A DNA stretch of 64,000 nt from Clitopilus passeckerianus (lineage: Eukaryota > Basidiomycota > Agaricomycetes > Agaricales > Entolomataceae): positions 434,001-498,000 of the forward strand of contig CALYLX010000139.1 in the NCBI GenBank assembly GCA_944990035.1, in the 5' to 3' direction. The position numbers and the translations under genes are program-made. Position 1 is the first letter of the stretch. The number at the start of each line of letters is the position of its first letter. Positions 2,681 to 41,020 of the stretch are shown in pieces. The notes beneath the pieces were generated by a model, which saw nothing but the letters and a program-made list of their open reading frames with translations, was not told the DNA's origin and did no database searches.

Positions 2681-3721
2681 CCTGGTCGGCCTCCCCTTCA
2701 TCAGTACCTGAAGCTATTCCTCATTTCAACCTTTTGCCTTCACATCCCATCATTGTTAACGCTATTGAACATTCCATGTATCGCTCGTTTCATTTCTCCC
2801 TTTCTTCATATCCACTTCCCTTCATACTACATTTAGGCTACGATAATATCATTTCTTCGTTCCCGATGACTCTGGGCCCCTTCATTACCCACATGCACCT
2901 AATAGAAGTAAGGATAGTCCGATGAACATGCTAACACTCGCATATCTAACGGGGCGCTTCGTGAACCAGATAGCACCTTTTCGAACTAGCTTCGTGAGGG
3001 TTTCAATTAATTTGACATGCAACAACATATTTTGTGCCACCATCTAAGGGCCGATGGGACCACTTGGGCGTTCATCCATGATACTACCTCGTTTTGAGGG
3101 TTCTCTGAAACTAGTTTCTGGGGTGCTGCTGCCTTACCTTTGCTGGCATAGGCGCCAAATAGGCGCTCATTGACAATCGAAACGATCGGGCCGAAAGCCG
3201 GTGCGCTTCCAGTGCTAACGCCGACGTTTGGAAGGCTTGACGTTGGACCACCACCATGCATTTATTGCAGCCACAAATTGCCAGCCCTGCACCCAACTTC
3301 ATCACACGAACAACTCAACAATAACCCTCGATCTACTTTCTGTCAGTGCTTGGGTTGCAAGCCCCCAGCCTCATGCTATATGGCCGTGTATTACCATGCT
3401 CTGCTGGCTTGCAAGGTCGGCTACTCATGTCACTCTGATGAATGCATGCAAATTAATGAAAAGCAGCAGGTGCTTCTTTACTTGCACACCTGGATGATAT
3501 AGACGCCCTACGTTGAGGCAAGATCGCAAATACACGACGCATGGGTGTCTTGTTGAAACTTCGGTCTTCATAGCGCTTTCTCTGCCGATGAAGAAGTCTA
3601 TGTATCCCAATCATCCAACGCAAACGCCACGTTTCTGGCATAGGAGGCCCCCGAATTGTCATTCAAATACGACACCTGAAGCAAGATAGCCAGTAATCAA
3701 CTCGCCCATCTCGCCAGTAAC
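2681..3721. other. Intergenic, nothing recognised
   Basis: About 1 kb between a stop and the next likely start. Open frames up to 110 codons occur but lack an ATG start, recognisable domains or plausible splice partners. No repeat or RNA gene was recognised. Confidence 0.4.
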
Positions 3722-5016
3722 ATGAACCCACCGCCACCATACACCACTGTCCCCACCAATGGACACGAGTCTCTTCGAATGGGGCTCGAATTTGGTAAAG
3801 GCGGAGAGAAAGTAGGCCCTAAGCCTGACGAGGAGTGCTTTACAGCTGACGAATTCCGCCTAGCCCCAGAACCGCGTACTATTGTCGACTTGTCCTCTCA
3901 AGATTAGGCAAGATTTTATCCGTAAAGTCTATAGTATCCTTTGTGAGCTGAATACCATAATTATTTATTCGGTGTCTCATGACCTTGTCTTAGTCCTGCA
4001 GATTGTACGTAGCCCTCCTCGCCACAAAGGGCGTACCTTTACCTTCTACCACCTCTAGGTCGCCACTACTGCTGTAACAGCCGGAATATTCTGCTCGCCG
4101 TCGCTCCACCAGTATCTTCTGGCAAAGTAAGGTTCTTTTCGCTCATGACAAAAATAGAGGCTAACCGCACTCTTTTTCATAACAGTGCATGGATCTTTTA
4201 CGGCTGTTTAGTCGGTGCTTTGAGCAACACTGCGGTTCTTGTGATCTACCAACATACTTTCCCGGCCAACTACCTCCTCTTGGCCTCGTTCACGATTATG
4301 GAAGCAGTCACTTTGGGAGTGAAGCTTGCGACTCTGGACTATGTTCTTGTCCTTCAGGCTCTGTACGTCGTCTGATTGGCTGGAGCACTTCATTCATCTG
4401 ACCTGCCTTCGACCAGTATCATCACCATTGGCGTATTTCTGGGTCTGACACTTTTCACTCTACAGTCCAAGGCAAGACTTGGCCTTCACTTGTTGGTGTC
4501 CTCGCTCCTAATTTTTGAATTTTAAGTGGGATTTCTCTGGCCTTGGACCTTTCCTATACGCCGGATCGCTTTCTCTCAGTAAGTCTTCAAGCGCTCAATG
4601 AATCAGTGCCTCACTTCCATGCTCAACATCTTTCATACAGTCATGACCGGGATTGCTAGGAGCTTTGTCCCATTCGGCAGTTTTGAGAACACTATTCATG
4701 CCTTGGCCGGATCGCTCGTATTCAGTGGATTTATCATCCACGATACCTCCCAATTGATCGATACTCTGTCGCCAGACGAGTTCATATGGGCCTCACTCCG
4801 ACTGTACCTCGACGTCATATCTCTTTGTGAGTGTTCTCAAGTCACTTCGAGCAAATGGTGTTCTGACAGTGCTGTGAAGTCATTTACATTCTACGCTTGT
4901 TCATGGAAGCTGAAAAGAAGAAGCAAGAGGAAGAAGCGAAGAAAAAGAAGGAAGCTGAGGAGAAGGCGAAGAAGGAAAAGGAAAGGGAGGCTAAGGGGAA
5001 GGGGAAGCAGAAGTAA
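3722..5016 (+). CDS. BXI1: TMBIM / Bax inhibitor-1 family protein (Bxi1-like)
   Basis: The spliced product has the TMBIM order: a Pro-rich N terminus (NPPPPYTT), then IRQDFIRKVYSIL, then about seven hydrophobic helices, with LLASFTIMEAVTLGV, VFLGLTLFTLQSK, LVFSGFIIHDTSQLI and LDVISLFIYILRLF, the family's most conserved blocks. A Lys/Glu-rich tail (MEAEKKKQEEEAKKKK and onward) ends at the TAA 5014-5016. Family members sit in the ER, Golgi or vacuole membrane, where they leak calcium and modulate stress-induced death. The N-terminal junction needs an intron of about 52 bp from roughly 3812 to 3863; this is the least certain part. An 11-nt exon at 3994-4004 restores the frame and the family motif. 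The N-terminal PPPPY could bind a WW domain. Confidence 0.85.
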
Positions 5017-5102
5017 TGGAGCCGACCCATACCTGTGATTTTGACATGTCGATTCTGAGGTTATATTTATTCGAGATGTTCTTCTGGTATTGTACTCTGT
5101 TG

Positions 5103-5140
5103 GATCTCTGTGGAATAATACGTCCTTGGGGATTTCTTGA
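5103..5140 (+). pseudogene. Short remnant of a beta-mannosidase C-terminal exon
   Basis: Bases 5103-5121 are identical (19 of 19) to 65-83 in the mannosidase 3' end at the window's left edge. In the same frame they read SLWNNTSLGIS followed by TGA. No mannosidase-like coding sequence was seen directly upstream, where the TMBIM gene ends at 5016. The fragment therefore looks like debris of a tandem mannosidase duplication. It lies between the truncated left copy and the complete gene at 5645. Confidence 0.5.
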
Positions 5141-5644
5141 CTTCGAATCCTAGCATCAGAGAACGTCGGCGATTGCACATGGCTTGCTTGGCTACCAACT
5201 CTCCTCAGTCTCGTTGTAGATGTTCTTCTCCACCTCACAAACATCTATCAGTTGCAGAGCTCTGGCTTCTGTGATGATTATTTCGGCAGACGCGCTGAAA
5301 TCCATGAGATCCAAATCCGGGCAAAGTGCTGGCCTTCCTACTTCTGATCAAGTGACCAAACCAAGTTTGGCGAACTGACTGATTCCACCTCTTCCTCGCT
5401 CTTAACCACCGCCAACAGCCGACATCTCGACAGCGGCTACCATGCTGCCTGCACTCCAACAACCAAATCCAGCAGGAAATCCGTACAGCCCCATGACCGG
5501 GGACGGATCCTCCAATAATGTTTACGTCATCCTCTGTCGACCGAAAGAGTGCCGCTCGGGGTCGTGAGCGAGCCTTCTTCGGGACAACCGTTATAATAAC
5601 AGCTTCAATCGCGGTCTTCGAGGCTCTGAGTACCATTTAGCACG

Positions 5645-8600
5645 ATGGGCGGACGCGTTCTGCTCGCGTTCTTGGCGGCATGCTTGACTACAACAGCGGT
5701 CGCGACGATGTTCGATCTCGCACGACTAGATTGGACCCTAAAGAACCAGAACGGCTCAATCCAGATTCCTGCATCTGGTCCGCCCTCACACGTTCACTTG
5801 GATCTGGCAAGAGCTGGAGTTATCACCGAACCTCTGCTCGAAATTAATGGTGAGCTCCTCGATCCATCAGTAGACAGTCCATTGACACCTGCGAGATCCA
5901 GATTTTACCCAACGCTGGGTGGCTGATGACAACTGGACATACACTGCTGATCTGACGGCATTCGATCGTGAATTCAACACGAAGAAGGCTGGGTCTACGT
6001 TACTGGTATTTTATGGGATTGACACCGTCGCGAACATCGTGAGTCTGCAAGACGTTCCGTGGTGTATTAAATCTGACCTACTTCTCTTAGACTCTGCGTG
6101 GACTACCCGTTGCTTGGGTCAATAATCAGTTCCGGCAGTGGACCTTTGACGTCTCGGACCACCTCACAAGTAACTTCGCGACGGATAACAACATAACCGT
6201 TGATCTCGCGTCGGCCTACCACTATGCTCTCAATGTCTCTACTCGGCCTGACGCAGAGACTTTTCCAGGAAACGGCGGCGTAAGTCATCTCAAACCCACA
6301 GAGTAACCTGTTCTTATAGCTGACGTCCTAATAGTTCGAATACCCTGGTATCTGGCCTTGGATTCGAAAAGTTGCTGACGACTACGGATGGGACTGGGTA
6401 TGCCTCCGCTACTTTACTTTGACACCTTTTACGAAATGCTGAGGCTATTGCATATAGGGACCAGCTTTTGTACCGACTGGAATATATAAACCTGCATACT
6501 TGGTGACACTGCCCAGTGGCGAAAAACTACATGGAAAGAACCCATCTGCCATGGCACCTCTTTCGCGCCCTGGTAGTACCGAACGCGTTCTGGGATCCAT
6601 CTTTGTTGAGGAGTCGTCTATTGACATCTTCAAACGCGGGCAATCATTCTCAGAACAGCACCCGGACCAGACTGCTGACTGGATAGTCAACGTGTCGCTC
6701 GCTCTGCGTTCTCCCTCCACGATACCCAAGGCAGTCCTTACCGTTACATTCCCCGAGCTCCACCTCACGGGAGAATTTGATATTTCGAATTTACCCATCT
6801 CCACCAAGGATCCTCACTGGGTTAGCGCTATTTGGGCTATTCCCGAAGGTATCCCTCAAAGATGGTATCCACACGACCTCGGAACTGGACCCAAGCTCTA
6901 CGATATAACCGTATCTCTTGATACACCCGATGGGAATCTCATCAATTTCAGCACAAGAACTGGCTTTAGGACGATCGTTATCGCTCAGACAGCCTACTCT
7001 GACGCTGAGGTCAAAGAAAGAGGCATAATTCCCGGCGACCAATGGCATTTCGAGATCAACGGGAAACCGTTCTATGCCAAGGGAACGAATATCATCCCAT
7101 TCGACCCTTTCTACCCGAGGATCCCGACAGACCGCGTGAGGTGGATCTTGGAGAGTGCTGTGAAGAGCGGACAAAATATGGTGAATCTTTTTTTTTCTTC
7201 ATCTGCGATACGTAGGAGCAAGAACTGACGAAAACCTAGCTACGCGTATGGGGTGGAGGCGCCTATCAACCCTCGTCGGCTCAGGAAGCGGGTGGCGTAT
7301 ACGACTTCTACTCCATCTGCGACGAACTCGGCATCCTCGCTTGGTCTGAGCTGATCTTTTCTGATGCGCTCTATCCTATCAACGACTTTTTATTGGAGAC
7401 GATCGAGCCTGAAGTCCGACAGAACGTGAGGCGTGTAAATAGGCATCCCAGTAACGCGCAATGGGCAGGCGGCAACGAAATTGAAGGAATCGTCATCTAT
7501 ACCAGGAATTGGGAGAATAACGGGTTGCATTACTTCAACGAGGTACGAAGATCCTTTTCTTCTCGGTGATGCGGCATTAGCTGATTGGATCGACCAGTAT
7601 GTTGAGCTCTTCCAGAAGTTCCTGTACAACGCCGTGACGTCGGAGACGAAGTCGGTAAGGATGTCGAGTTTTAAAATTAGATTAAATCGGGAGTGACGAG
7701 ACTAAATTAGGTGCCTTACACCGACTGTTCCACTACTCATGGTGTTCTGAGCCTTGAACCGTATGTTCTTCGTTTCCAGAACGGGACGGATGGATACATC
7801 TACGGGAATTCAGGCAAGTCTCCTAGCGCTCTCAAAATTGGACCACGATTAACTTCTCACAGAACGATTCAACTACGATGCTGTCTCCGCTTTCGATTAT
7901 TCGACATACCCGGTTGCTCGCTTTGTGAACGAATTTGGGTAAGTACCCTCGGTCCCGATAATCTGCCCGTGTACCTGATTTACATGAACAGCTTCCATTC
8001 GATGCCGTCGTTCTACAGCTGGGAAGAAGTCCTCCAGTCTCCCGAGGACTTTTCTTTCAATTCCACGGTGGTGCAGTCTCGCACACACCACCCTCCCGCT
8101 GGAAATTTCGACTGGCCGAATCCAAAGGCGCCGCAAGGCCATGCGGAAATGACGAAGGCGGTCGAGCTCTGGCTTCCCAGCCCGGGATTCTCGGAGACGA
8201 ATCAGACGTTCGCCCAGTGGTGCTTCAGCACCCAAGTCTTCCAAGCCATGACGATGGTCTCTCAGGTGGCTTGGTATCGTCATGGCGCTGGGAAAGGAGA
8301 GAATAACCTCGGGGCATTGATATGGCAACTCAACGACATCTGGCAAGGTGTTAGCTGGTCGGCGATTGAGTACTCTGGTCGATGGAAGGTTCTCAATTAT
8401 GGTCTGACGGGGATTTATTCCCCTGTCGTTATCTATCCTTTCTGGACGCAGTCGAACCAGACACTGCAGGTGCTTACCATCTCCGATCGGTGGGAGGAGG
8501 TGAAGGGTACTGCGCAGCTGACGTGGTTTGACTGGGCTGGGCGCCCGTTGAATATCACTACTCTCGACTTCACGACCCCGAGCTTGAATAACTCAGTCCT

Positions 8601-9376
8601 ATTGGAGGCCACCGGCCTGACTAACATCTTACCAGTCGGGAGAGATGCCAAAGACGTGTGGCTGCTACTCAATCTGACAGCTCAGATTGATGGAGGGCGG
8701 ACTGTGCATAACGAACAATATGTGAGGCGTTTCTTATTATTCCAAGGTATCTCCTCTGGGTATGGTTCTAATCTATCTGTCTTTCACAGTTCACACCTGC
8801 CTCCTTGGCAGATGCCCATCTTGTCGACCCGAAGATTGAGGTGACTCGGGGAGAGGGCTTTACTTTCACGCTCTCAGCTAAAGGCGGCGTAGCGCCGTGG
8901 ACTTGGATGGACCATCCCGCGGGGACAGTTGGTGTGTTCGTCGATCACGACACTGGCATTCCCTCGAACGGCTTCTACCTGATCCCTGGTAATGACCGCA
9001 CACGTATGTCATCCAAGCTTAATTTGCCTCATACCAGTGTCTAACTGAAGTTCTCTGCGTAGTGAGGTTCGAACTCAATCCTGAGATATCGAAGGTCAAA
9101 TATCCGGATGCTGCCGACTTTGTGGTGAGGTCTTTGTGGAGTAGTAAGGAGCTTGCCGCACTTGAACCTAGGCCCGATCTTCCGATGCCCACAGATGATT
9201 CAAAATGGGTGTCCAATTGGGTGTTCGGCCTTATCCTTGCTGGGGTCGTTGGTGGGTTTATCGCGCAGCGAAGGCGGGCGAGGAACCTTGAATCGTCAAA
9301 GGCTCAGGACGAAGGAGAACAGGAACCCTTGTTGAATGAGGAAGATCATCCGGAGTATGGAACTTCGAGAGCTTAG
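5645..9376 (+). CDS. GH2 beta-mannosidase with C-terminal membrane anchor
   Basis: The start is followed by a hydrophobic signal sequence (RVLLAFLAACLTTTAVA). The exon-2 motif QRWVADDNWTYTADL is typical of the GH2 sugar-binding domain of beta-mannosidases. NRHPSNAQWAGGNEIEG (about 7440-7490) carries the general acid/base Glu. The nucleophile motif NEFG-FHSMPS is split by an intron near 7935-7990. The middle and C-terminal domains are full length. Unlike secreted fungal beta-mannosidases, the protein ends with a helix (WVFGLILAGVVGGFIA), a basic stop-transfer QRRRAR and an acidic tail with EPLL (a dileucine-like sorting motif), ending at 9376. This suggests a type I protein sorted to the vacuole or lysosome-like compartment. 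It would trim terminal beta-mannose from mannan or N-glycan fragments. Confidence 0.9.
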
Positions 9377-10937: not shown

Positions 10938-13900
10938 ATGTCAGCAAGACTTGGAACTCCGGCTTCCAGTCGGAATGGGAGTGTTGCTGGAGACCGAAGT
11001 GCTTGGGGACTCGGGGCTTCAAGCTCCTCGCAGGGGGACATTATGACTTACGCACAAGGGACGACAGACATTATAGCGCCATGGGATGAACCTGTGAGTA
11101 TATTGGCCTGTTTTTGGAGATTTCCTGCTAGTCCCACCGCATCGCAATTATTCGCTTCTGGCTTGAACTATTGATTATCTGCCGTTTGTTTTTGGAGAAT
11201 GCTGACCCTTTTGCTATCTATAGCCTTCCCCTCCACCAAAGGCCTCGCGGTTTGGATTTGCCCATAAGGCTTCCTTCTCAGCTTTCCCGCTTCCTGGCCT
11301 ACGGCAAGCAAGCCTGAACAGTCCTTTGCGTCACCCAAGACCATCAGAATCGAATAGTACCATAAGTACGGAAGAACCCTCAATACGACGGTCAGCGGAT
11401 GGAGAATCGACGCTGTCATACCCAACAACCATTGCAGATTCCTCAACACTCTACAGTGAACCTCGACAGTCCAAGGTGTCGCTGCTCTCTAAACTCAGAA
11501 AATCTCGCTCCAAAATCAGCCTTCACTCGAATGGAGACCACCCATCTCTCCAACCACCGCCTCCGCCACTACCTGACGCGCTCAGCATACTACCAGGTCG
11601 AAGAGTTAAGCGCGGAGAGCCGAAGAAGAAGAGGTCTGCCAATGGGGCAGTTCAGCCTACCAACTCGGGGAACAACCCTGTCGGGATGACACTCGACCTG
11701 GACATTGAGAGGATGGACGGCATCATCGACCTCACACTCTCAAGAGACCCTAGCATATCTTACGCTGGCCGTGGCTCGATCTCATCCGATGGCCACACTG
11801 GTTACTCCTCCTGGCAAAGCATAAACCCGAACCCTTCTTCCTCCCAATTCACCCTTATCGCACCCAGCGAGTTCAGCAACCCTTTCGCACCCACTTCCAC
11901 CGATACCAAACGCACAGGACGCATCATCAGCCCTGAAGATGCCCGCCGAATATCACCCAAAGAGCGTACACTGACGGATTCAGCCTCAAAACCTCTACCC
12001 CTCACACCAAACGGGAGCGGTCCGGGAAGTCCCTCATGGACTGCACCCGAGAGCTGGGCAGTAGAATCAGCAAAGAAGACGGTCGAGCCTGATTACTCCA
12101 GTTCAGACGAGAGTGTTACCGACCCTACTGCCGAGCCTCGGATGAGCTTCGCGCCGAATCCCAATGTCAATTCGGAAATAGACAATATACCCGACCATCT
12201 GATGACCGACTTCTTGCTGCCCAAGGCACCCAAGAAGGAGAGGGGGAATCGGCATAGAGGGAAGGGCCAGAGGCAGGAGAGGATATTCGTCATTCGGATT
12301 TACCGTGATGATAAGAATCAGTACCATAATGTTAGGCTTGGGCCTAACACCACGGTTGGTGCACTTCTGCCGAAGTTGAGGGAACAGCTTTTAAGGCCAG
12401 ATGAAGTGGAAGAGCATCGCTTGTATATCAAGGAGCGAGGGCGAGGTAGGCTATATGCGCCTTTTCTTGTTTGAACCGAGCTGATGGTATTTCCTTGCAG
12501 AACGCTTGTTGATGAACACTGAACGTCCCGCTGAGATTGTGCGGAAACGGTTGGAACAGGCAGGCTACGACCCCACGGATTGCAGCGAGCTTCTCGGTAG
12601 CGAAGGGCAACACTCGGCATATCTCCTCAAGTTCGTCTTCAAAAGCCAACTTCTTCGCACTGTTCGTTGTCCATTTTCGTCGAGTCATTGCATATATTGA
12701 TTATCATACACAGAGAGAACAAGAGGGCGAACCAGACATTGACCTTGAGGAGTACAACCACGTTGATCTTACCGGCCGTGGCCTCCGAACGATACCCGTC
12801 CTACTTCACCAGCATGCAGACTCAATAGTCTCCCTCAAGCTCTCACAAAACCCAATGCTCGAAATTCCCCTCGACTTCATCCAATCGTGTGTTGGCCTCC
12901 GGGACCTACGCCTATCCAACATGGCTATGAAAAAAGTGCCGCAGAGTGTCCGCCACGCCATAGGTGTCATGCGCTTGGACCTTTCCTCAAATCGTATAAG
13001 CGACCTTGACGAAGCAGTCCTGGATGACATACCACCGCTGCGGATTTTAACACTGCAGAACAATCGACTAGAAAAACTCCCGTGGTATTTCCCCCGCCTC
13101 CACAACCTCGTCACCCTCAACATCTCCAATAACAAATTCCGCGTCTTCCCCTCCGTCGTCTGCGACCTCATCAACCTCAGTGACCTTGATGCCTCTTTCA
13201 ACCTCATCACCGAGCTTCCGGAAAACTTTGGGAAGTTGGTCAAACTCGAGCGATTATGCCTTGTTGGGAACCAAATCAGCAAGCTCCCAGACGACTGTGT
13301 CAACCTCAGGTCTTTGATGAGGCTTGACTGTCGCAGGAACCAGATTCTCGACTTGAACATCGTCAGCATGCTCCCCCGGCTGCAAGAGCTCGAAGCAGAC
13401 CACAACGCCGTTGCAAAACTTGACCTTTCCCTCGGACCTTCCCTCAGCAAGCTTAATGCTGCCTTCAACGAAATCACCCAACTCTCACTCGCCCCCGGAC
13501 CCCTTGGCAAATCTCCTTACGCGTTGACTGAGCTCGACATCTCACATGCGAAGTTATCATCACTTGATAATTTCGCCCTTGGACAATTGCGGTCCCTCCG
13601 TGAACTCAATATCAACCACAACTCCTTCCGGTCAATGCCAGAGACTTTGGGAGACCTCACCTTCCTCGAGAAGCTCTCATGCGCCGACAACCAGCTCGAC
13701 TCACTACCAGCGAGTCTGGGTAAATTGCAGAGGCTGGAAGTGCTTGATGCGCATAACAACAGTTTGACCGAGCTCCCCATAACGCTGTGGAATTGCGCCT
13801 CGTTAAAGAAGATCAACCTCACGTCCAATTTGCTTGGTGTCTGGCATGACCCCCCTGCGGCACCTTACGAGCCATCCGCTATGGATGTCGAGCTCATGTC

Positions 13901-16800
13901 ACAGCCGGAGCAGATTTTGGGAAGGAAAACCTCCACGACCTCCCTTGGTTCGCTGCCAGGACCTGGACGTCCCGCCCCTCCATTGACCCATTCCTTGGAG
14001 TGCCTTCATCTAGGAGAGAATCAGTTCAACGATGATATCTGCAGTGTCATCCTCGTATTCCGGAAGTTGCGCGTTCTCAACCTGTCGTTCAACAAGCTAC
14101 AGGACCTTCCCTCGAATTTCTTCCGCAACATGACCTTCCTGGAGGAGTTGTACCTGAGTGGGAACAAGTTGACCAGCATCCCGACGGAAAACTTGAAGGC
14201 TCTCAACGCTCTATGTGTTGTATACCTGAATGGCAATCGTTTGGTGTCGCTACCCGAGGAACTTGGAAAAGTCAAGAATTTGATGATTCTTGATGTCGGA
14301 AGCAACTTGCTGAAGTACAACGTCAACAACTGGGAGTTTGACTGGAACTGGTATGTTTCAAGGATTCATCTTTTCGGGTTCAGTCTCTGACAAGCCTTAC
14401 AGGAACTTCAATACCAACCTACGATACCTTAATCTTTCGGGGAACAACCGCCTGCAAATCAAACCGGAACCAGAAAGACATCGGCATAGCGTCTCAGGTC
14501 TTCGCAAGCCTCCCATCCGCCTGGCCGGCTTTACCGACCTCAAGCAGCTTGCGGTGCTTGGACTCATGGATGTGACCATTGCGGCAACGGTCGACAACAG
14601 CATTGTCGAGATACCTGAGGAGAATGACGATCGCCGTATTCGTTCCTCATCCTCCACCGTTCTCAATATGCCTTACGGAATTGCGGATGCAATTGGCAGG
14701 AAAGACCCTCTTACCATGCTCGATCTCGTCCATGAATTCCGCGACAGAGAGGGTGAAGCCATTTTCGCCATGTTTGGTACCTCCCACCCCCCAAAAACTC
14801 TTGCTCCTGGTGCCACGCGTAATCGACTTTCAAAGTACCTGCACGACAACTGCGTAAATGCATTGATGTACCATCTAGGGCATCTCAACCCTGTACTCAA
14901 TGAAGGACCGCCAGATGCCCTACGTAGAACTTTCCTCAAGCTCAACCAAGACTTGCACGACTCGATGTACGTGTCATTGCGCAAGGGGTCAACGAACAGC
15001 AATACGCCCGGGAGGAAGGATAGCATTGTGAGGAACAGCGCTATACCAGACCCGGCTACTATCCGCAGCGGCGTCTCAGGAATCGTGGTGTACTTCGTCA
15101 AGAAGGCCATGTATGTTGCCAACGTGGGCCACGCTCAAGCTGTTGTCTCCAGACAAGGAGATGCGCGTCTGTTATCCCGCAGACACGACCCTCTTGACCG
15201 CACCGAGACGGGGAGAATCCGGTCAGCAGAAGGTTGGGTGTCACCAGCCGGCCTTGTCAACGAAGAAGTGGATATCTCAAGAGCATTCGGGTATTACCAT
15301 CTACTTCCAGTTATCAACGCCCGTCCGGACGTCTTCAGCTACGACATCACCCCCCACGATGAGTTCGTTATCATCGCGAACCGAGGTCTTTGGGACTACA
15401 TGTCATATCAAACCGCTGTGGACATCGCACGCGAAGAGCGAGGTGACCCCATGACTGCTGCCCAGAAGCTGCGGGACTTTGCTATCAGTTATGGCGCTGA
15501 CGGAAGCACCATGATCATGGTCATCGGCATCAACGAAGCTCGCGACGCAGGAGAAGATTTTGCGAAGAAAAACAAGAACTTAATCAATGACCGCACCCTC
15601 TATCGCCTCAAGAACGAAGTGCCTGCCCCAATGGGACATTTAGCTCTCGTCTTCAGCGACATTCGGAACTCAACACCCTTGTGGGAAGCCAACCCAGGCA
15701 TGGCTACTGCTCACCGTATTCACAACAACCTTCTCCGTCGCCAACTCCGGAACTGTGGTGGTTACGAGGTCAAAACAGAAGGCGACGCGTTCATGTGTTC
15801 GTTCCCTACCGCCACAGCGGCCGTCTGGTGGAGTATCACAGTCCAGCAACAGCTCCTCCATGCTGATTGGCCACTGGAGATTTTGGAATGTGAAGACGGT
15901 CAACCGATCTACGACCCTCAAGGTCGTCTCGTCGCTCGTGGCCTCAGTGTCAGGATGGGGATCCATTGCGGTACCCCTTCCCCCGAACCCGATCCTATCA
16001 CCCATCGTATGGACTACTTCGGCTCTATGGTCAACCGCTCTGCACGTATCTGTGGCAATGCAGCTGGCGGGCAAATCATGTGCAGCGCGGACATCATCCG
16101 AGAAATCGAGGCCTCGGTCTTCGGCAAAGAACCTCCCACTGAACATACGAAACGCCAACCTGAGCAGGCCATCCAACGCATCAAGAGTATTGGTATCACC
16201 ATCATCCCCGTTGGAGAGGTCAAGCTTAAGGGTCTCGAAGTGCCAGAGTACCTGTCGCTTCTTTACCCTATAGAACTTCTTGGACGCCAAGATTGGGGAC
16301 CCTCGGGGCCTACCGCATCCGGCTCCCGTGTTCCATTCAGTGTCGAGCAAATGCAATCTATGGGCATGCTGTGCCTCCGCCTCGAAGCGCTCACATCTTC
16401 CCGAATCTTCCGCGCCCTGCCAGCAAGAAAAGGGAGCATCCAGACTTCGCTGAGTGCAGACGATGACTTTGGGCAGGTAGACGAGGCAGATGGGGATGAC
16501 GGCAGCGGGGGAGAGAGGAAACAGCCGGTTGAGATATTTGGCGATCCCGCGATCTTGTTGCCTCCCATCAATTCGCAGAGCACAGATGTGGAGATGATGG
16601 CGCTTTTGCACTCACTGGCAGCGAGGATTGCGAATGCGGCTGCTGCCCTTGCAGAGATGCAGGTGCAGAGTAAGGCAACGGAGGCCAAGAAGGAGGACGC
16701 TACAGTGGATAAGGACGAAGTGATGCAGAAGTTGAGGGGCTGTAACGAGTTGGACGGACGGACGTTGGAGTATGTGTTGTCTTTGTTGAACGGGATCTAG
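10938..16800 (+). CDS. CYR1: Adenylate cyclase, fungal type (RA-LRR-PP2C-cyclase)
   Basis: It makes cAMP and is the Ras/G-protein-controlled regulator of fungal growth and mating. Domain order in the roughly 1,850-residue product: a Ser/Pro-rich disordered N terminus; a Ras-associating-like domain (RIFVIRIYRDDKNQYHNVRL to KFVFKSQLLR, about 12280-12660); more than fifteen leucine-rich repeats (12720-14600); a PP2C-like domain (about 14680-15540); then the class III catalytic domain (15630-16260). The catalytic domain has FSDIRNSTPLWE with a metal-binding Asp, TEGDAFMCSF with the second, and DYFGSMVNRSARI with the transition-state Asn/Arg. The ATG at 10938 opens the first exon (52 residues, intron 11094-11223); an in-frame ATG at 11043 is an alternative. 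Introns lie near 12447, 12665 and 14352. It appears intact. Confidence 0.95.
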
Positions 16801-20285: not shown

Positions 20286-23229
20286 ATGTCCACCTCGTCG
20301 TCGATATCGGCCAGTGTCACCAACACCGCTGCTGCTGCTTCCAGCTCGGCCGCTGAGAAGACCCTGAGCGTTGGTTCGAACTTGAAGGTCGTCGGGATTA
20401 TCCTCGCTATCGCTTCTGGTGTCCTTATTGGATCGAGCTTTGTGTTTAAGAAGAAGGGGCTGCTTCGTTCGCAGGCGAATGGAGTGGCTGGAGAGGGCGT
20501 GGCTTATCTCAAATCGGTGCGTTTTTGCGTTATTGGTACATTGACAATGGGAAGCTTATCTTTCTTTGGTGTAGCCGCTGTGGTGGTGTGGGATGATAAG
20601 TGAGTGGTTGCTGGTTTGGAAAGAGGGTAGGAATGAACTAATGGATGGTTGCAGTGATGATATTAGGAGAACTGTGTAACTTTGCTGGTACGTCCTCCTT
20701 CCCTCCTCACCTCGACACCAACACTAAAACGCCATTCGCTAGCATACGCCTTCGTGGAAGCTATCGTCGTCACCCCACTCGGAGCCCTAAGCGTCGTGAT
20801 CTGTGCTATCCTCTCCTCGATATTCCTCAAAGAAACCTTGACATTCTTCGGATGGCTAGGATGTGGATTATGTATTGTGTGTCCTCCTTCCCTCCTTCCT
20901 CCTCTCCCTCCTCCCTTCCACCTTCCACCACGCCCCAAACTAACACCCACCCAGCTAGGCTCCGTCATAATCGCCCTCAACGGCCCCTCCGAGGGCACAG
21001 TCGGCCAAATCAAAGAATTCCAAAAACTCTTCCTCGCCCCCGGTTTCCTCGCGTACGCCGGCGTCCTCATCGCCGCCGCCCTCGTTATCGTCATCTATTT
21101 CGCGCCCCGGTATGGGAAGAAGAGTATGCTGTGGTATATCATGGTGTGTTCTATGATTGGGGGTATTAGTGTTTCGGTGACGACGGGGTTGGGGAGTGCG
21201 ATTGTTACGACTGCGTATGGGGATAATCAGGTGTGTGCAGTGACTTTAAATTTGGTTGAGGAGGAGGGCTGATTTTGGAGGGTAGTTTAAATATTGGTTC
21301 ATGTACTTCCTCCTGGTGTTCGTCATTGTGACACTCCTAACGGAGGTGTACTACCTCAACGTAGCGTTGGCTTTATTCAACACCGGTTCGTTTCCCCTCT
21401 TCCTTCTCCTCCTCCCCATTCTAACTAATACTCCTCGAACAGCAATGGTGACACCAACCTACTACGTCATATTCACCTTCTTCTCAATAATAACCACCAT
21501 CGTCCTCTTCCAAGGCCTCAAAGCCTCCCCAAAAGAAATAATAACCCTCGTAATGGGCTTCCTCGTCATCTGCCTCGGGATCGTCATCCTCCAAATGTCC
21601 AAAGTCGACCCCTCACAGCTCAAATCCATCACCGCTCTCGATCGGCGGTCCACCATCCTCTTACAAGCTGCCAGAAGCAAGACGGAGAATATGGAAAGAG
21701 GTGAAGGGGGGGATGGGGAGAAGAGTGTGTTGGGTATGGAGGATCCGGGGATGGATGCGTTGAGGGGGAGTTTTGGTGCTGTGGGGAGTATTATTAGGGC
21801 TAGGAGTGTTAGGAGGATGTCGCAGTCTTCCTCACAGCACCGAGGATCGCGTGCTACGGGGTTGGGAGGGCTGCATCATAATTCCTCCCTATACGACCCG
21901 CATAATTTACGGGACTCCCTGCCTACGTTCACGCAACAGGGGACGGACGGGCAGTTTGACGGGTTGAAGAGACATCAGTTGTACGATGCCCCTGTTCCAC
22001 CTCGGTCGCCCTTCAATCAACCGCACCCCCTCTCGCCACTTTCCCCCTCGACCGCGGCTGGGGGAGGGGGAGATGTGAACAGCACATCCTCGATAGCGGG
22101 TACACCCGTTATGGGGAAGAAACCGACGATTAAATTTGGAGAGGAGGATGTGGTGCACCAGTATGACCGTCCTGGGACGGGGGATCGGACGACGGAGTAT
22201 AGGAGGGCGGTTGGGGGGAGTCCTCTTCACGCTTTAGGAGCGGGAAATAGATCTGACTCGGGTGGACCGGGTGTGGCGGGACTGGGAGCGGGTGGGGGCT
22301 ACCCGCCTATGCCGCAGAGTCAGCTGGGAGGAACGACGCCGAGAGCGAGGATGGATGGGTTGCCTTTGGTTACGGGTGTTGGCACCGGCGGGTGGGGCGG
22401 GTTAGATGAGGGGTCGTCGACTACGTCTTCGGATGTGCCAAACGTCACAGTGGAAGGACCTACCCGTTCCAGCGTCGGTACGGACTCGAACTCGAGCGGG
22501 TCAACGACGAGACCACAGGGAGGACCGAGTTTGTTATCGGATTCTTCGGATGAGTCGCAGGCTCAGATTCAGCAGACACAGACGTTGAGTATACCCGCTG
22601 GCCGGTTTAGGAACGATAACGAGATTCGGTCTGCGCCTCCTACCCTCTCCCCCTCCACCTCTCAACCGGGTGCACCGAATCCATTCGCACGCCCCTCGCA
22701 GGGGAGGGTACAGGCTAGAAACATATTCTCGCCTTCGGGAAGTGGACCTGGGGGTTCATTCCTCGGGACGGAGGGAGGAGACAGTGCGTTGTTGAGTTTC
22801 CCCAGCGTTACGGATTCGGCGAGGAGTGATATTATGTGGGATGAGGAGGACTTTTTGGCGTCTTCTTCGTCTGTTGGTGGGCCTACTAGCCGGGCTCAAC
22901 AACCTCACGGAGCCTCACCTCTCAACCCCGCCGTGCACGGGCATAACAGGACAGAGTCCCTCCCCGAACCTCAACACCCCCGTTCCCGGACCCATTCCAA
23001 CGATAGCAGAGGCGGCGGGCGGGGCGCGAAGAAGCATTACCCCAAAGGGCCAGGTGGGGATGATCGGGAGGAGTCGCAGAGTCTGTGGAGAAGGAGTCAG
23101 GACTCGATGAGTAGTACTGAGGGGGGTGGGGAGGCGGAGTCGCCGCTGAGTCCGAGTTTGATGGAGGGGGGCGGGATTAGGTTAGTTACGCCCCCTCCTA
23201 GAGGGAGTAGTAGTGCTGATCGGTTTTAG
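20286..23229 (+). CDS. NIPA-type magnesium transporter with long cytoplasmic tail
   Basis: The spliced N-terminal part matches the NIPA/DUF803 family: KVVGIILAIASGVLIGSSFVFKKKGL, then LKSPLWWCGMIMMILGELCNFAAYAFVEA assembled across introns near 20518 and 20601, VTPLGALSVVICAILSSIFL, LNGPSEGT, and TAMVTPTYYVIFTFFSI. About nine membrane helices are visible. NIPA proteins carry magnesium and related divalent cations across plasma or endosomal membranes. After the last helix (FLVICLGIVILQMSKVDPSQ) comes a tail of more than 500 residues rich in Ser, Gly and Pro with no recognised domain, encoded by one long exon to the stop at 23229. The tail is presumably disordered and regulatory. Confidence 0.93.
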
Positions 23230-26245: not shown

Positions 26246-27521
26246 CTCAAAAATGATCATGTCGCAATGTCATCTGGCCCGCACTTCAATTATTCACTTC
26301 CGCTCCGATACTTTGATTCTCCACCTTGTGCCCCACGTTTGGCTTTCATCTTTGCTTTCTGTAGGGTCACGTAAACGAACCTGTAATACTTAGTCAGTAT
26401 CAATGTCATCATGAAAAGTTTCCCCTTGGTCAGTGTTACGACTTCTGTCGGTTTTGTTTGCAAATGATACTTATCCTGGCCTGACCAACCATCTGTGGTC
26501 CTGTTTGCGAGCGTGATCGTTTTCGGCAACGCTGATTGATAGAAGCACAGCCTCTGCCAAAACCACTCCCGTTCCATCCCCCTTGACCTCGTGTTAAGAC
26601 AAGTATGCTCTCAATATAGATTCAAGAGCTTTGGTCCGTCCAATCTATCGTCATACTCAATATGGCATCAACCAGAGTTGAAGTTACATTCTGTTTCCTG
26701 AGCGCAAGTCTTTCCTCCTGTTTTTTGGATGAGCGGAAATTTGACAAGTCTTTTTCTCCACCTCTTTCTAGGCAAACATGAACTACTTACAAGCCATACT
26801 TTCTGGCTTGCTAAATCCGCTCTCAAGGTATCACTGCCTCAAGAGAATGAACCGGTCTCCGTCGATACATTACACCCCAGAATCTCGTTACTCGCAATGA
26901 CACGGCACAGGCACGAGGGCAGGATATCCTTCGCCAAAAGGGCGCATCTAACATTCAATGCTGAGCATAGAAATCCAGAATGGACTGAGGCAACAAATCT
27001 GAAGTATAGGCACCGCAAAATATCCTCGTCGAAAGTGCACATCTGGCGGCGTTGTCTTGGCTCCGAGACGCAGCGCAGGCACCAGGGCAAAGCGTCCTTC
27101 TGACCCCTCGTCCAAAGCGTGGCCATGGAATTGCGAAAGCAAAGGAGTCTATTCGTATATTCTACTAAATGTCTTCCTATCGATGCTTTGACTACTCTCA
27201 TCACTCAAGCCATCTCATAGGCTAGCAGACTATGAATACTTGAAAATCTGGGGGTGAACGCCCAACTCCACTTAATTAATATAATGGAATGAATCTGCGG
27301 TATTGATTGCGGCGTATAATCCGCCCCTGCCTTGGACAACCCCTCCACAAACATGACAGGCCGTTCATCCATTCATTGGAATTTTTGGGGCTTTCATCGG
27401 CTCACGTCCTTCCCGGGGCTTCTCCCTATACGGCACCCGATGGATGAGAATATAAAAGGGCGATTGTCTGCACCATCTTACGGCCAGGAAACGACCCTTT
27501 TGCTCGATTCTAATTGCTACG
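26246..27521. other. Intergenic / tyrosinase promoter
   Basis: About 1.3 kb with no supported gene. A minus-strand frame at 26290-26577 lacks any recognisable domain. Two weakly similar stretches near 26911-26935 and 27078-27102 share CAGGCACNAGGGCA and a following TCCTTC. The TATA box of the tyrosinase is at its right end. Confidence 0.4.
27451..27457 (+). promoter_or_regulatory. TATA box of the tyrosinase gene
   Basis: TATAAAA lies 71 nt before the start codon at 27522, a normal distance for a strongly expressed fungal gene. Confidence 0.7.
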
Positions 27522-29770
27522 ATGTCTCACATTACTGTCTCCGGCGCTAACCTTCCCACTCCTAACCCGCCTGGTGCTAAACCCATCACTCCTCCTCGTC
27601 TCAATATCGCTGACCTCATCAACGATGACAAGCAATGGTCTCTGTACATCCAAGCTCTGGGTGAGTATCGTATCTGATACTTAAAGCGTCCCTTGTTCTA
27701 ATGACGATCATGCAGCTCTGTTCCAGAAGGAGGATCCCACAAAGCCGCTTTCCTGGTTCGCCATCAGCGGTATTCATGGGTACCCATATGACTTGCAATG
27801 GGAGAAGGCTGGTCCCAAAACTGAGGACTACGGCTATTGCGTGCACGGCTATCCTCACTTCCCCACCTGGCACCGCCCTTACCTTGCTTTATACGAGGTA
27901 AGTATGACTATAACATCCAATACAGCATACTGATGACACCCTACTACTCTGTAGCAAGCTCTCCAAGCTGCTGCACTCAAAGCCGCCCAGGAGTATAGGA
28001 CGGACACTGATGACTGGGTCCAAGCAGCCCTCACTCTCCGCGCTCCATACTGGGACTGGGCCAATCCTGCCACCTATTTACCTCCTCGTCAGGTCTACGA
28101 CTCAGTTCAGTTCAAGACCCTTCACATAACCACCCCAGAGGGCCCAAATGACGTTCCCAACCCACTCCTCGCCTACGAATTCCAGCGCAAGATCAGGTGG
28201 CCGTATTCTCAGTACTCAGCGACTATCAGGCATCCTCGTTCAGACCCCGCGACGAGTATCGCGGCATTCGAGGAGTGAGTCGCCCGCAATTAGAACAGTA
28301 ATCAATTTCGTACTAACTGCATGCGTAGGGACGTTGGATCTAACGCCAGACTTGGTGACCTTCAGTTCGATTGTTGGAGGACCCTCAACTGGACAACGAC
28401 CTGGCTCCAATTCAGTAACCAAGGTGCTACTCGAGGACAGAGTACGTAACGCCTACCACTTGTCTTCACAGTCCCCAATCAATACTGAATGACTCTCCAG
28501 GGGCCAACAGTCTGGAAACCCTCCACAATTGGATGCACAATCGAACTGGAGGTGGTGGACACATGAGTGACCCGATCTCCGCAGGTGCGTATCTCCTCTA
28601 ATCATCTTGCAAACCAATAATTGATTCGATTTTTTGAAGGCTTTGATCCAATCTTTATGCTCCACCATACCAATGTTAGTTAACTTTCATTATCCCGGAA
28701 ATCTCCCTTTCCTGACGCATGTGAACAGGTTGATCGTCAACTCGCACTTTGGCAAACACTCCACCCGGAAGTCTGGATCTCCCAACAACATGAACCCAAC
28801 TACGTCAACAGGGGTCAGTTTCTCTACTCTTGCGAATTCTGCGCAGTGATTCTAACTAGATGAACTCTAGACCTTTCTCCCTTCTGGAAGGACGGCAACG
28901 CATTCCATCGTTCGACCGATGACCCAGTCAGAGATTTCATCAAGTTCCAGGCTACTTACCCCGAGTTTGTGGGCCTCGAGAACCTCTCTGCCGCTAAGAG
29001 GAAGGCAGAGATTCAAGCCAAAGTCGACGCGTTATACGACCCCAAAAACCGTCGTCGTGGTATTGCCGTACGACCCTCTGCGGCGCTCGCATCTGCTGTC
29101 AGCAACGCTCAGGTAGCCCCGCAGGCCGTCCTGCAAGCAGCCGCTGTTCCTCAGGCCGCTTTTAGCACTCGAGCTATTATAGATGAGAACGCGGTTCCCG
29201 CCGACACTCAGGCTGCCCCCGAGGCCGACACCGCGCTGGAGGCCCTTGATTGGTTCACTCGCATCCGCGTCAAGAAGTTCCAGCTCAAACAAAGCTTCAC
29301 CGTCCTCATTTTCCTGGGCTCAGTTCCCGAGGACGTTGCACAGTGGCGTTCGTCACCCCACCTCGTTGGCAGCCACAGTGAATTCGTGAACTCCGATCCC
29401 GAGCATTGTGTCAGTTGCAGCGACAATGCCAATCTCATCACGGAAGGGTTCATTCAGTTGGACGATGCACTTGAACGGTTGGGTTTGGGTCAGAAGAACG
29501 AGGCGGAAATTGAGGAATTCATCCACGATCAAATTAACTGGCGGATCCAGAAGGTAAGGTAGTTCTGTCATTATTTTCGTTCAATTCTGACCGCTTCGCT
29601 ATTAGGTTGATGGGACGGTGGTGGATGCTGACGAACTTGAGGTCCTTGAGGTAGCCGTTATGACCTGGGATGTGACGGACGGCGACGTCGAAGTCCGCCC
29701 TGTTCACCGCAACGTAACTTCTCACAAGGCTGGGGGTCGTGTTCCAGGCCACAAGACCTACCATCTCTAA
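27522..29770 (+). CDS. ppo: Tyrosinase / polyphenol oxidase (type 3 copper)
   Basis: It hydroxylates monophenols and oxidises o-diphenols to quinones, leading to melanin. The product is about 600 residues without a signal peptide, as in mushroom tyrosinases. The CuA site has SGIHG, YCVHGYPHF (Cys-x-His of the thioether bridge) and TWHRPYL; the CuB site has LHNWMH and FDPIFMLHHTNVDR. All six copper His positions are present. After an Ala-rich linker (about residues 380-440) comes the C-terminal lid domain from about residue 443 (ALDWFTRIRVKKF, FLGSVPEDVAQWRSSP), which keeps the proenzyme closed until proteolysis. Nine exons are likely; the last intron is 29554-29605, phase 0, four codons after the Trp of INWRIQK. 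The end lies 136 bp from the end of a converging gene that encodes a lid-like protein. Confidence 0.95.
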
Positions 29771-29906
29771 AGAGTTTTGTATGGTTTGATTGTAAAGAAT
29801 GTAATAGTACGAACAAGAAGAAATGTCACTCTGGTAGTAGGAGTTGCAAGTTGTACAGCTGTTTATTTTGAGCAGGGAACATGAATTACAAACGGGCGAT
29901 TGTAAA

Positions 29907-30348
29907 TCACGCGCGGGATGTCTCATTGCTAAGTGTAATTGTACCATCCGGCCCAACCACCGAAACCTTCAATAACTTGAGCTTCGAGTTGTCGACCTTT
30001 TCGTCGTGATAGCGCTGTACTGAATGAGATTCTGCTCCTCATTGCGGGATAAGACTTTACCTCCTTGACAACCCACAACAGGTGCTCCCGGAGATATGGG
30101 ACAACATCGGCATCCTCTAGTTTGCCCTTACATCGCTGTTCGAGATACCCGTTCAAGGAACGATATTCAGTGGTTGTAGAGTGCGCATGGGAAGATATGG
30201 GTTCAAAGAGGCGCGAAGGGGAAGTTCTCCAGTCCGAGGGAGATGAGGGGACGGAATCGATGAAGAAATAAAGCTCATAGGGCTCTCCTAGTTCCTTTGG
30301 ATCGTATTTAATCTCCAGGTCCCAGTCGTAGTCGAGGTGAACAGACAT
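29907..30348 (-). CDS. Free-standing homologue of the tyrosinase C-terminal (lid) domain
   Basis: One 46-bp intron (30015-30060) joins two exons into a 131-residue protein with no signal peptide and no copper-binding His pattern. It aligns over its whole length with the C-terminal domain of the tyrosinase next door. DW starts the domain; KELGEPYELYFFID matches QLKQSFTVLIFLG; SVP-x5-WR-x-SP occurs in both with identical spacing; and the end (KLKLLKVSVVGPDGT) matches ELEVLEVAVMTWDVT. The intron falls exactly four codons after a conserved Trp in phase 0 in both genes, which points to common descent by duplication. The Cys-containing loop of the tyrosinase lid is missing. I infer a role as a trans-acting chaperone, inhibitor or decoy for tyrosinase. 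A non-functional duplicate is less likely because frame, intron and TATA box are intact. Confidence 0.75.
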
Positions 30349-30414
30349 TATGAGCAAATTCGGTATATGGTCGGAGCAAGTTCCTGCGGTGACTCCCGGC
30401 GGCCTGAGGGTCGT

Positions 30415-30422
30415 ATTTTATA
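30415..30422 (-). promoter_or_regulatory. TATA box of the lid-domain gene
   Basis: TATAAAAT on the minus strand lies 67 nt before the ATG at 30348, nearly the same spacing as the tyrosinase TATA box. Confidence 0.6.
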
Positions 30423-31239
30423 CGCCTCAAGCTCCGGACACATCTAGAATAGGACGTACAGGTGACTTTTCGGAGCTCAAACGCCGAGATAGAGTTTAAA
30501 CCCAAGGGTTCCTGGAGTGGTTGGTGTCACGTAAACCAGTTGAAGCCAAATCTAAGTTCTAGTTCGGGCAAGGACTCCTAATGCAGAAACCGCTTCGCCC
30601 TGGCTGGTACTGCACTCCTCAATGCACTCCTCGCGAAGCGAGCGCTTTCCGGAACATGCCTCAAAATTAGAAAGACACGCCTCAGTACGCGTTCGAACGA
30701 AGAAATTAGATGCTGCTTGCAAGGATTCCCTATCCAAACGATAGAGAGCCGATGAGCTGTCCGAACGAGGAGGTATTCATAGCCCTCTCTAGCGGTCGGT
30801 GACTCAATCTGGCTGCAGCTTTGGAATGGAGAGAAGTAAAAGATGTTTTGCGGCCGATTTGCACCAACAAACACAGGAGGCTGTGTTGCTTGCTCCCAAT
30901 CAAAAATTCAAAATCAATTCACTTTCAACTTCTTCCACTTTCTTCTCTTCTGGACCACCATTGTTCAATGGCTCATGGCCTCATACTCTGCTATCTTGTA
31001 CGATTTGCCGGTTCTCAGAGTATCGTAGTCGTCAGCTCCCTCTAGAGGAATCACAGAGGAATGCACTGGCCGGTGTGAAATCAGCAACCTACACCCTAGC
31101 TATTCAATCGGAAGGCAATACATGACTACCACAACGTCAATCTTATCCACATTCGTCTCCACCGCGCTGATCACCTCAGTTCGGCATGGCGACCGTCATA
31201 TAACTATGAGTCCAGAGCAAGAGCCTCGTTCCCCTTGAA
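30423..31239. other. Divergent promoter region, nothing else recognised
   Basis: It separates the minus-strand lid gene from the plus-strand membrane protein gene. No exons with copper-binding motifs were found upstream of the lid gene, which supports its being free-standing. Confidence 0.4.
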
Positions 31240-36454: not shown

Positions 36455-37317
36455 TCATGCTTTGCCCACCTCAAGGCCAGCTCTGGCGGCAGGACGGGCA
36501 ACGGTGCGCTCAATCCAGTCCTTGACGCGCGGCCATTCATCCAGAGACTCTATACCAGCGAATTTGTGTTTGTTGACCCTAATGGAGAATCATCAGTTCT
36601 TCGTCCCGCTCTACCGAAGCTAGTTTCACCTACCATGGGACTGCCTTGATATCAGCAATTGAGAACTTGCCCCTTCCCTCACCAACAAGCCAATCTCGGT
36701 CAGCTAGGCGGATCTCAAGAACTCCATATAGGCGCTTAGTCTCGTCAAGATAACCTGATGATACCATGAGCACGTCATATTTTACCTGTGGTTTTTGCAA
36801 AATCCTGTCAAAGGAGGTCAACTCACGTTTCTTTGCATAGGGGAGGTCCTCAGGTGCGAAGTTGTTGAAGTGGTGGGATTGTCCCTGCATGGGGGCGACG
36901 CCGCCATGGGTAAAGAAGATCCATTGAAGGAGCTCGCTGTAGGTGTTGGGATTCTTAGCGGGATCGAACCAGAACTTAAAGTCTTTGTCGTAATGATGGG
37001 TGAGATAGAGGAGAATAGCGGCGGTCTCGAAGACTACGAAGTTGTCCCTGCTACGGTCAACAAGAACAGGGATACGACCGTTCGGGTTGAGCTTGATAAA
37101 CCAGGGCTCCTTCTGCGTGTTCTTCCAGATATCAATCGTCTCTATGCTACACCGATGAATTGAGCCAGTGTAGATTAGGCCCAAGAAAGAGTTGGGCTAC
37201 TCACTCGTAGTCGATGCCAGGATAGACAGCCTTCAGTTCCTCGAGGAGGATAGTAGGTTGTAATCCGTTGGGTGATGCGGCGAAGTAGAGGAGGAAAGGC
37301 TTAGTGGATTGAGACAT
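36455..37317 (-). CDS. Glutathione S-transferase, Ure2p-like
   Basis: The N-terminal exon ([20 protein letters not shown]) starts a thioredoxin fold. The next exon has [13 protein letters not shown] (cis-Pro loop) and [17 protein letters not shown], where Glu-Thr takes the place of the usual Glu-Ser that binds the gamma-glutamyl group. The helical C-terminal domain ([27 protein letters not shown]) and [12 protein letters not shown] with the conserved helix-capping Asp follow. The end is [11 protein letters not shown]. Fungal Ure2p-like GSTs are abundant in wood- and litter-decaying mushrooms and are linked to detoxification of plant phenolics. Three or four introns are needed. It is divergent from the LRR gene at 37663 with about 345 bp between the starts. 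Confidence 0.9.
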
Positions 37318-39939: not shown

Positions 39940-41020
39940 ATGAGCGATGCAGCGTTCTACGCTATTCCGGACCAGATAGATCTTCGGCGGCTCGTCAGGA
40001 GGCTCGACATTGCCTGCCTTGAAGATGAATGGAACAAGAAACCCTATCTCGGCAAGTGGATTAAGGCTCAGGCTGCTCTGCAGGTGTGTATCCATTATCT
40101 CCAAACTGAAGTGGTATTGAACTTTCAGGTGTAGCGAGTCGCACATGCTAGGACGCTGCTTAGGAATGTGGAAGAGCTGGACTCAGAACGTCTCTCGTAA
40201 GTCCAGCCTTAGCTTTTGGTCTCGCTCCACATTGACCCTCACCTCGACCAGGCCGAGAGTGCAGCAACTAGAAGAGATCAAGCAGAAGCTTGACGAAGTT
40301 GAGGAGTACGTGAACGAAGTAAAGGAGGTTTGTCGCACCCTAATTATGCCGAGCGCTTTCGTCCTGAATGCCCTCCAATAGCAATCAACGCCCAAACCCA
40401 CCCGTCCACGGTCTATCCTGTCTCAAATCCGCAGGCCGCCTCTTCCATCTGCTACAATCTCTGCTCCTCTCACCCTTGACCTCCCGCCCAATGGAGGGCA
40501 TGTTGATGCACCTTCCAACACTAAGAAAGCTGCACATCTGGAACCTCCAACAGACGAGCTTCTCCTGCCCGCCGATACTGCAAGCTTCCCAACTTCTAAC
40601 TCCTTCGCCTTCCCCACACCCATGCCTCTCCTCCCTCCATCGATAACAATACCCTCAAGCACAACTACAACTACCAGTACCTCCGATGCCACAGCAACAG
40701 CCACTGGTGTCTCCACGAAATACAGCCAGAACACGAACGCACTCCACCAAGACCTCTCTGATCAGCTCGCGCAGATGGCTACTCAACTTCGAAGGAATGC
40801 CCAGTACTTCTCCGAAGCTCTGATCAAAGACAAAGCTGTGATGGAAGATGCGGAGGTCAAGGTGGAGAGTAACTTCAATGTTATGCAGAAAGAACAGACG
40901 AGGTTGAAAGAACATAGTGGGAAGAGTAGTTCAACGACGTGGTTGACGTATGGAATCATCCTTGCGGCTTTGGTTCTGTTCATGTTTACGGTTTTGCTTA
41001 TTCGTGCAACACGTTGGTAG
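39940..41020 (+). CDS. USE1: ER SNARE Use1
   Basis: The start gives MSDAAFYAIPDQIDLRRLVRR. The next exon, after an intron of about 50 bp, gives RVAHARTLLRNVEEL. A helical stretch QQLEEIKQKLDEVEEYVNEVKE and a Pro/Thr-rich linker follow. The SNARE core LHQDLSDQLAQMATQLRRNAQYFSEAL leads to KSSSTTWLTYGIILAALVLFMFTVLL, a C-terminal tail anchor ending at 41020. This matches Use1, the unconventional SNARE for Golgi-to-ER retrograde fusion with Sec20, Ufe1 and Sec22. Four introns are consistent with the frame. It is convergent with the DUF6533 gene, 192 bp apart. Confidence 0.85.

Follow-up and report, generated by a model that had tools for sequence, protein, structure and literature searches.

A small gene in the genome of the fungus Clitopilus passeckerianus encodes a tyrosinase C-terminal domain, or lid, as a protein of its own, next to a complete tyrosinase gene that bears such a lid. 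We show by comparison with its relatives that this gene is one of a conserved family encoding fungal tyrosinase lid domains that stand alone, here called free lids, which are missing the loop that carries the plug and the CxxC motif in tyrosinases. The gene lies in a window of 64,000 nucleotides (C136:434001-498000 of a 64.8-Mb, 160-contig assembly), where two exons on the minus strand, 30348-29907, encode its 131-residue product. As the earlier note on this DNA had described, the two genes are arranged tail to tail. The spacer from stop codon to stop codon (29771-29906) measures 136 bp, against 129 bp on the other haplotype, and no other part of the pair is conserved so poorly (76.7% identity). 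No report of a free-standing fungal lid was found among the open-access papers listed by our literature searches, judged by title and abstract opening, with subscription journals mostly outside that scope.

The neighboring gene (27522-29770, plus strand) was modeled as nine exons separated by eight GT-AG introns. Its frame has no internal stop and encodes 601 residues, made up of a catalytic domain, a linker rich in Ala and a lid at the C-terminal end. A search of the fungus's own genome gave a match to the type-3 copper domain PF00264, and the lid exon matches Pfam Tyrosinase_C (PF18132) with 90.5 bits. The last two exons (28871-29770) supply the remaining catalytic part, the linker and, from about residue 441, the lid, in which alignment to abPPO4 (PDB chain 4oua_B) places Phe491 at the plug position and a CVSC motif at residues 499-502. 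Relatives reach 73% identity, the nearest named ones being from Punctularia, Polyporus, Fomes, Mycena, Cubamyces and Trametes. With a type-3 copper domain and a lid bearing both the plug Phe and CxxC, the neighbor is a fungal tyrosinase of the latent type.

The product of the small gene matches PF18132 over the whole domain (profile positions 1-121 of 121; 59.1 bits against a cut-off of 26.9; E 8.5e-16), and no other Pfam family is matched at E up to 10. It is therefore a homolog of the tyrosinase C-terminal domain and nothing else, as had been proposed, and the core motif SVP-x5-WR-x-SP does recur with identical spacing in the two neighboring proteins. Profile comparison, on which the earlier note had let its case for homology hang, found the expected similarity both in this match and between a profile of the free-lid relatives and one of the tyrosinases (probability 98.8, E 6.7e-17). 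What did not hold up is the description of the small protein as a copy of its neighbor's own lid. Direct BLASTP gave 23% identity over 127 columns (E 1e-10 as a single comparison; only 0.47 in the whole-genome search), and the tree described below separates free lids from tyrosinase lids. Because identity is this low, the free lid is an old paralog rather than a copy of the adjacent lid, and a recent local inverted duplication is ruled out by the tree together with the 23% identity. Searches of PDB sequences with the free lid (four matches) and with the family alignment (two matches) returned unrelated chains with weak scores, E 0.46 and above.

A protein search with the free lid recovered 14 relatives, and an alignment-based search extended these to 43 proteins, namely 42 free lids, including the first 14, and one tyrosinase piece, P0056. 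The 42 range from 60 to 238 residues; precomputed Pfam annotation is PF18132 alone in 41 and nothing in the 60-residue fragment P0055. In our own Pfam scan, each of the 40 members of the family alignment matched PF18132 and nothing else at E up to 0.001 (P0041 and P0055 stood outside that alignment). Catalytic-domain annotation is found in none of the 42, and the copper-site motifs that we tried are found in none of them, although the same motifs pick up 12 of the 14 tyrosinase entries, pieces among them. Many family entries consist of one exon whose reading runs on into the intron, and an earlier catalytic exon is possible for individual rows. Against such an exon, 38 of the 42 relatives share with the window's protein a Met that precedes the YFF strand by 23-30 residues; of the others, P0013, P0040 and P0042 begin inside the domain, and in P0044 the Met lies further out. 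The window's gene itself starts at the domain, which is thus not attached covalently to the C-terminal side of a catalytic domain. No free lid came from the sources ncbi, uniref or nr (0 of 42, versus 7 of 13 proteins from the tyrosinase search); sparse sampling of the lineage that holds them, or deficient annotation of small genes, may be the cause. No relative was confirmed in virus contigs or prokaryote genomes, as expected for a fungal gene.

We built an unrooted tree of 59 rows and 92 columns from 43 free lids, two of them from this genome, and 16 tyrosinase lids; fragment P0055 and the lid of a second tyrosinase of this genome (on contig C72, see below) were left out, and P0028 retained some intron-read tail. 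One branch parts the free lids from the tyrosinase lids, with support 100/100 and presence in all 200 bootstrap trees checked. The window's free lid joins its allele, P0003 and P0005, apart from the lid of the adjacent tyrosinase. Many forks within both groups are left unresolved by 92 columns. On the plain reading of this tree, the free lids would have had one origin, which predates the spread of the family.

Exon 1 of the free-lid gene (30061-30348, residues 1-96) rests on the gene model, the PF18132 match and the search of the genome itself, and exon 2 (29907-30014, residues 97-131 and stop) on the gene model and the same genome search. Between them lies a single phase-0 GT-AG intron of 46 nt (30015-30060, GTAAAG...ACAG) exactly four codons past Trp92, at a position conserved in the free-lid family. 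Among the 41 relatives that reach that place, 34 have Val directly after Trp+4 (Cys+4 in P0051), as expected from an unspliced GT donor, and the other seven (P0001, P0002, P0004, P0030, P0032, P0050 and P0054; source jgi) run on into exon-2 sequence there. The splice model is thus supported by a donor place shared in 34 rows and by clean removal in seven; the latter suggest, but do not prove, derivation from transcripts. An alternative acceptor 5 nt upstream, TTCAG, was rejected, as its use would give the protein an unrelated C-terminal end, and the spliced relatives agree with the acceptor TACAG. The tyrosinase has its own phase-0 intron (29554-29605) four codons after the equivalent residue of its lid, Trp543, confirming an observation of the earlier note, as do TATA boxes at about 70 nt before both start codons. 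TATAAAA begins 71 nt before the ATG of the tyrosinase (27451-27457, plus strand; the same on the second haplotype) and 74 nt before that of the free lid (30416-30422, minus strand; TATATA at 76 nt on the other haplotype). We give this spacing little weight.

One loop of the tyrosinase lids is missing from the free lids. As reported in PMC4157443, residues Ile448-Thr455 of abPPO4 pass through the active-site groove, where Phe454 acts as a substrate placeholder that shields the site, and the loop then bears a CXXC at 462-465, termed the copper grappler. Free lids are 12-13 residues shorter here: from the Trp to the end of E-[FY]-R there are 24 residues in those 37 of the 43 free rows that fit the pattern, whereas the Trp and the end of EGF are 36 residues apart in 15 of the 16 tyrosinases, with a distance of 46 for the remaining one. 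At the plug column, Phe is found in all 16 tyrosinase lids and a gap in all 43 free lids, under three alignment settings. CxxC is present in each of the 14 tyrosinase lids scanned and in none of the 42 free lids, the fragment P0055 stopping before the loop. No Cys or His column is conserved family-wide, the best of the well-filled ones being His54 (23 of 43) and Cys73 (22 of 41). The nearest aromatic residue to be kept is Phe48, in 41 of 43 free lids, which sits eight residues past the Trp, versus 13 for the true plug; the alignment register here is unsure, since profile alignment sets Pro50, not Phe48, opposite the plug. Conservation specific to the family is seen at and after the loop, in R46, F48, P50, S53, E61, R63, N66, G67, Y68 and L69 (each in at least 39 of 43), which suggests that the free lids may have a binding surface of their own.

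The same pair in the same arrangement was found on contig C54, with 90.5% identity over 9,562 bases compared (88% by blastn with gaps counted), and we infer that C54 carries the other nucleus's copy of the region. The reading frame of the free lid is open on both haplotypes. The free-lid gene differs between them by 11 synonymous and 11 non-synonymous changes, corresponding to synonymous and non-synonymous divergences (dS and dN) of 0.133 and 0.037 and a dN/dS ratio of 0.28 (Fisher p 0.0066), a coarse test with two sequences only. The ratio is 0.083 for the whole tyrosinase and 0.024 for its lid. By this measure the free-lid gene is under purifying selection, weaker than that on the neighbor's lid. 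This pairing is known from two haplotypes of one assembly, the 42 relatives being proteins without genomic context. The genome search gave no further free-lid copy among the matches listed, of which the best candidates were scored. It did reveal a second lid-bearing tyrosinase (C72:245500-255499, at about 3300-5500 of that stretch), which has a CENC motif and a GTGAGT donor at the same lid intron position; no allelic copy of its lid is among the assembly matches listed.

Two features of the haplotype comparison stand apart. Directly ahead of the free-lid ATG, a stretch of 102 bp (30349-30450) is 96.1% identical between haplotypes, more than the free-lid exons (93.5 and 94.8%) and far more than the stretch upstream of the tyrosinase (83.2%). 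In the lid part of 28871-29770, dS is 0.34 and dN 0.008, whereas dS is 0.12 in the catalytic part and linker; this nearly threefold rise in synonymous divergence possibly marks a recombination or gene-conversion boundary.

We tentatively favor the view that the free lid, as an accessory subunit without a plug, docks on tyrosinase and tunes its activation, although we would give this somewhat less than an even chance. The protein would probably be located in the cytosol, like its partner; its gene has nothing ahead of the domain, and so the two could plausibly meet there. Docking would most likely occur at the face of the covalent lid, before or after that lid is cleaved. Having no plug strand, the free lid might act on the enzyme as a cover or stabilizer, or as a competitor of the plugged lid, leaving the copper site unfilled, so that the outcome would be tuned activation and neither an outright block of the enzyme nor copper loading. 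We prefer this reading because lids are reported to fold alone and to stay bound (in apple MdPPO1, after cleavage and without a covalent link), because a signal sequence is described as rare in fungal tyrosinases, most of which are cytosolic, and because Streptomyces uses a separate caddie instead of a lid (all PMC11608171). Whole-domain homology, the fully supported branch, purifying selection, the shared intron place, the start Met in most relatives, the presence of the pair on both haplotypes with no further copy among the genome matches listed, and the missing plug strand and CxxC also count for it. Several points weigh against it. Protein evolution is faster in the free lid than in the lid of the tyrosinase itself (dN/dS 0.28 versus 0.024), and at 23% identity to that lid the docking surface may be lost. 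No free lid lies near the C72 tyrosinase within the 10 kb examined; thus, not every lid-bearing tyrosinase needs one. Docking, its site and its effect are furthermore drawn from sequence and from known systems. A more specific form of the proposal, which we regard as quite unlikely, is lid exchange, in which the plug-less free lid would displace the neighbor's plugged covalent lid and so switch the latent enzyme on, or keep the cut enzyme ready, without a protease. If true, this would be an activation mechanism for fungal tyrosinase and a eukaryotic counterpart of the caddie, derived from a lid of the type that the enzyme itself bears; a 2024 review describes the physiological activation of non-insect enzymes as still elusive (PMC11608171). 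A conserved separate lid without plug and copper loop is in any case a natural experiment on the roles of lids besides plugging, and a concrete protein for tests.

The main rival to an accessory subunit is a function unrelated to tyrosinase, which we consider a real possibility if a somewhat doubtful one. Here the domain, once freed from tyrosinase, would now bind a sugar, a phenolic or another protein, and adjacency would be a relic of its origin. The divergence of the free lids and their absence at the C72 locus allow for this, but the pair is kept on both haplotypes with no copy elsewhere among the genome matches listed, and Tyrosinase_C is the sole Pfam family found, for the window's protein and for the other members at the thresholds given above. 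Another rival takes the gene as a relic, a functionless product of partial tyrosinase duplication or a mis-called open frame. Inverted duplication does yield partial domain copies, the gene is short, and many of the relatives were called as one exon on a short contig; against this stand 42 relatives without catalytic-domain annotation that form one tree group and mostly (38 of 42) keep the start Met, as well as the dN/dS of 0.28, the conserved intron place and the frames open on both haplotypes. We judge a functionless relic extremely improbable, and a pseudogene is very unlikely in view of that dN/dS, the existence of the family and the shared position of splicing.

The roles suggested by the earlier note included those of inhibitor and copper-loading partner, and the loss of the plug/CxxC loop argues against both copper loading and plugging by the known Phe. 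An inhibitor acting in trans, which would re-cap activated tyrosinase with Phe48 replacing the lost Phe, is weakened by the gap at the plug column in every free row and by the position of Phe48, with profile alignment favoring Pro50 instead; an aromatic residue kept close to the missing strand, and the reported precedent of the caddie as a separate protein that places an aromatic in the active site (PMC4157443), keep Phe48 in view as a possible substitute, and we rate such an inhibitor as unlikely. A copper-loading chaperone comparable to MelC1 fares worse. It has in its favor a small separate protein encoded beside a tyrosinase, as reported for MelC1 (PMC11608171), but without CxxC or any family-wide Cys or His in the free lids, and with a neighbor that retains its own CVSC, we regard it as very improbable. 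Chaperone, the remaining role named in the earlier note, may still apply, as may that of accessory subunit.

Comparison with known systems sets the free lid apart from each of them. It resembles the lid of latent fungal tyrosinases (PF18132; abPPO4, PDB 4OUA/5M6B) in its whole-length domain and intron position, and the lid of the adjacent tyrosinase in its core motif, but it differs in being a separate gene, in its shortened plug/CxxC loop and in forming its own tree group. With the Streptomyces caddie MelC1 (PF06236) it has in common that a small protein is encoded beside a tyrosinase and that the lid is a separate chain; however, the free lid has no PF06236 match at E up to 10. MelC1 is reported to share an mRNA with an enzyme that is the central domain only (PMC11608171), whereas here the tyrosinase keeps its own lid and the free-lid gene is on the opposite strand with its own TATA box. 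Another separate small companion of a mushroom tyrosinase is the barrel-shaped, lectin-like light subunit of abPPO3 (ORF239342; PDB 2Y9W), whose role is given as unknown in PMC4157443. The free lid differs from it in its lid-derived sequence, and its Pfam matches at E up to 10 include no family of lectins; by sequence comparison, no lectin chain is among the few weak PDB matches (four and two) of the free lid and its family.

Elsewhere in the window, open stretches on the plus strand at 11224-16797 encode in succession an RA_3 domain, LRR repeats, a PP2C domain and the catalytic domain of adenylate/guanylate cyclase, an order that we take to be that of fungal adenylate cyclase. A glycoside hydrolase 2/mannosidase gene lies at 6458-8841, with Mannosidase_ig above the cut-off and Glyco_hydro_2 just below it. 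Further genes encode a NIPA magnesium transporter (20667-23226), a GST N-terminal domain (36633-37196), the Use1 membrane-fusion protein (40382-41017) and a 2OG-Fe(II) oxygenase (59991-61013).
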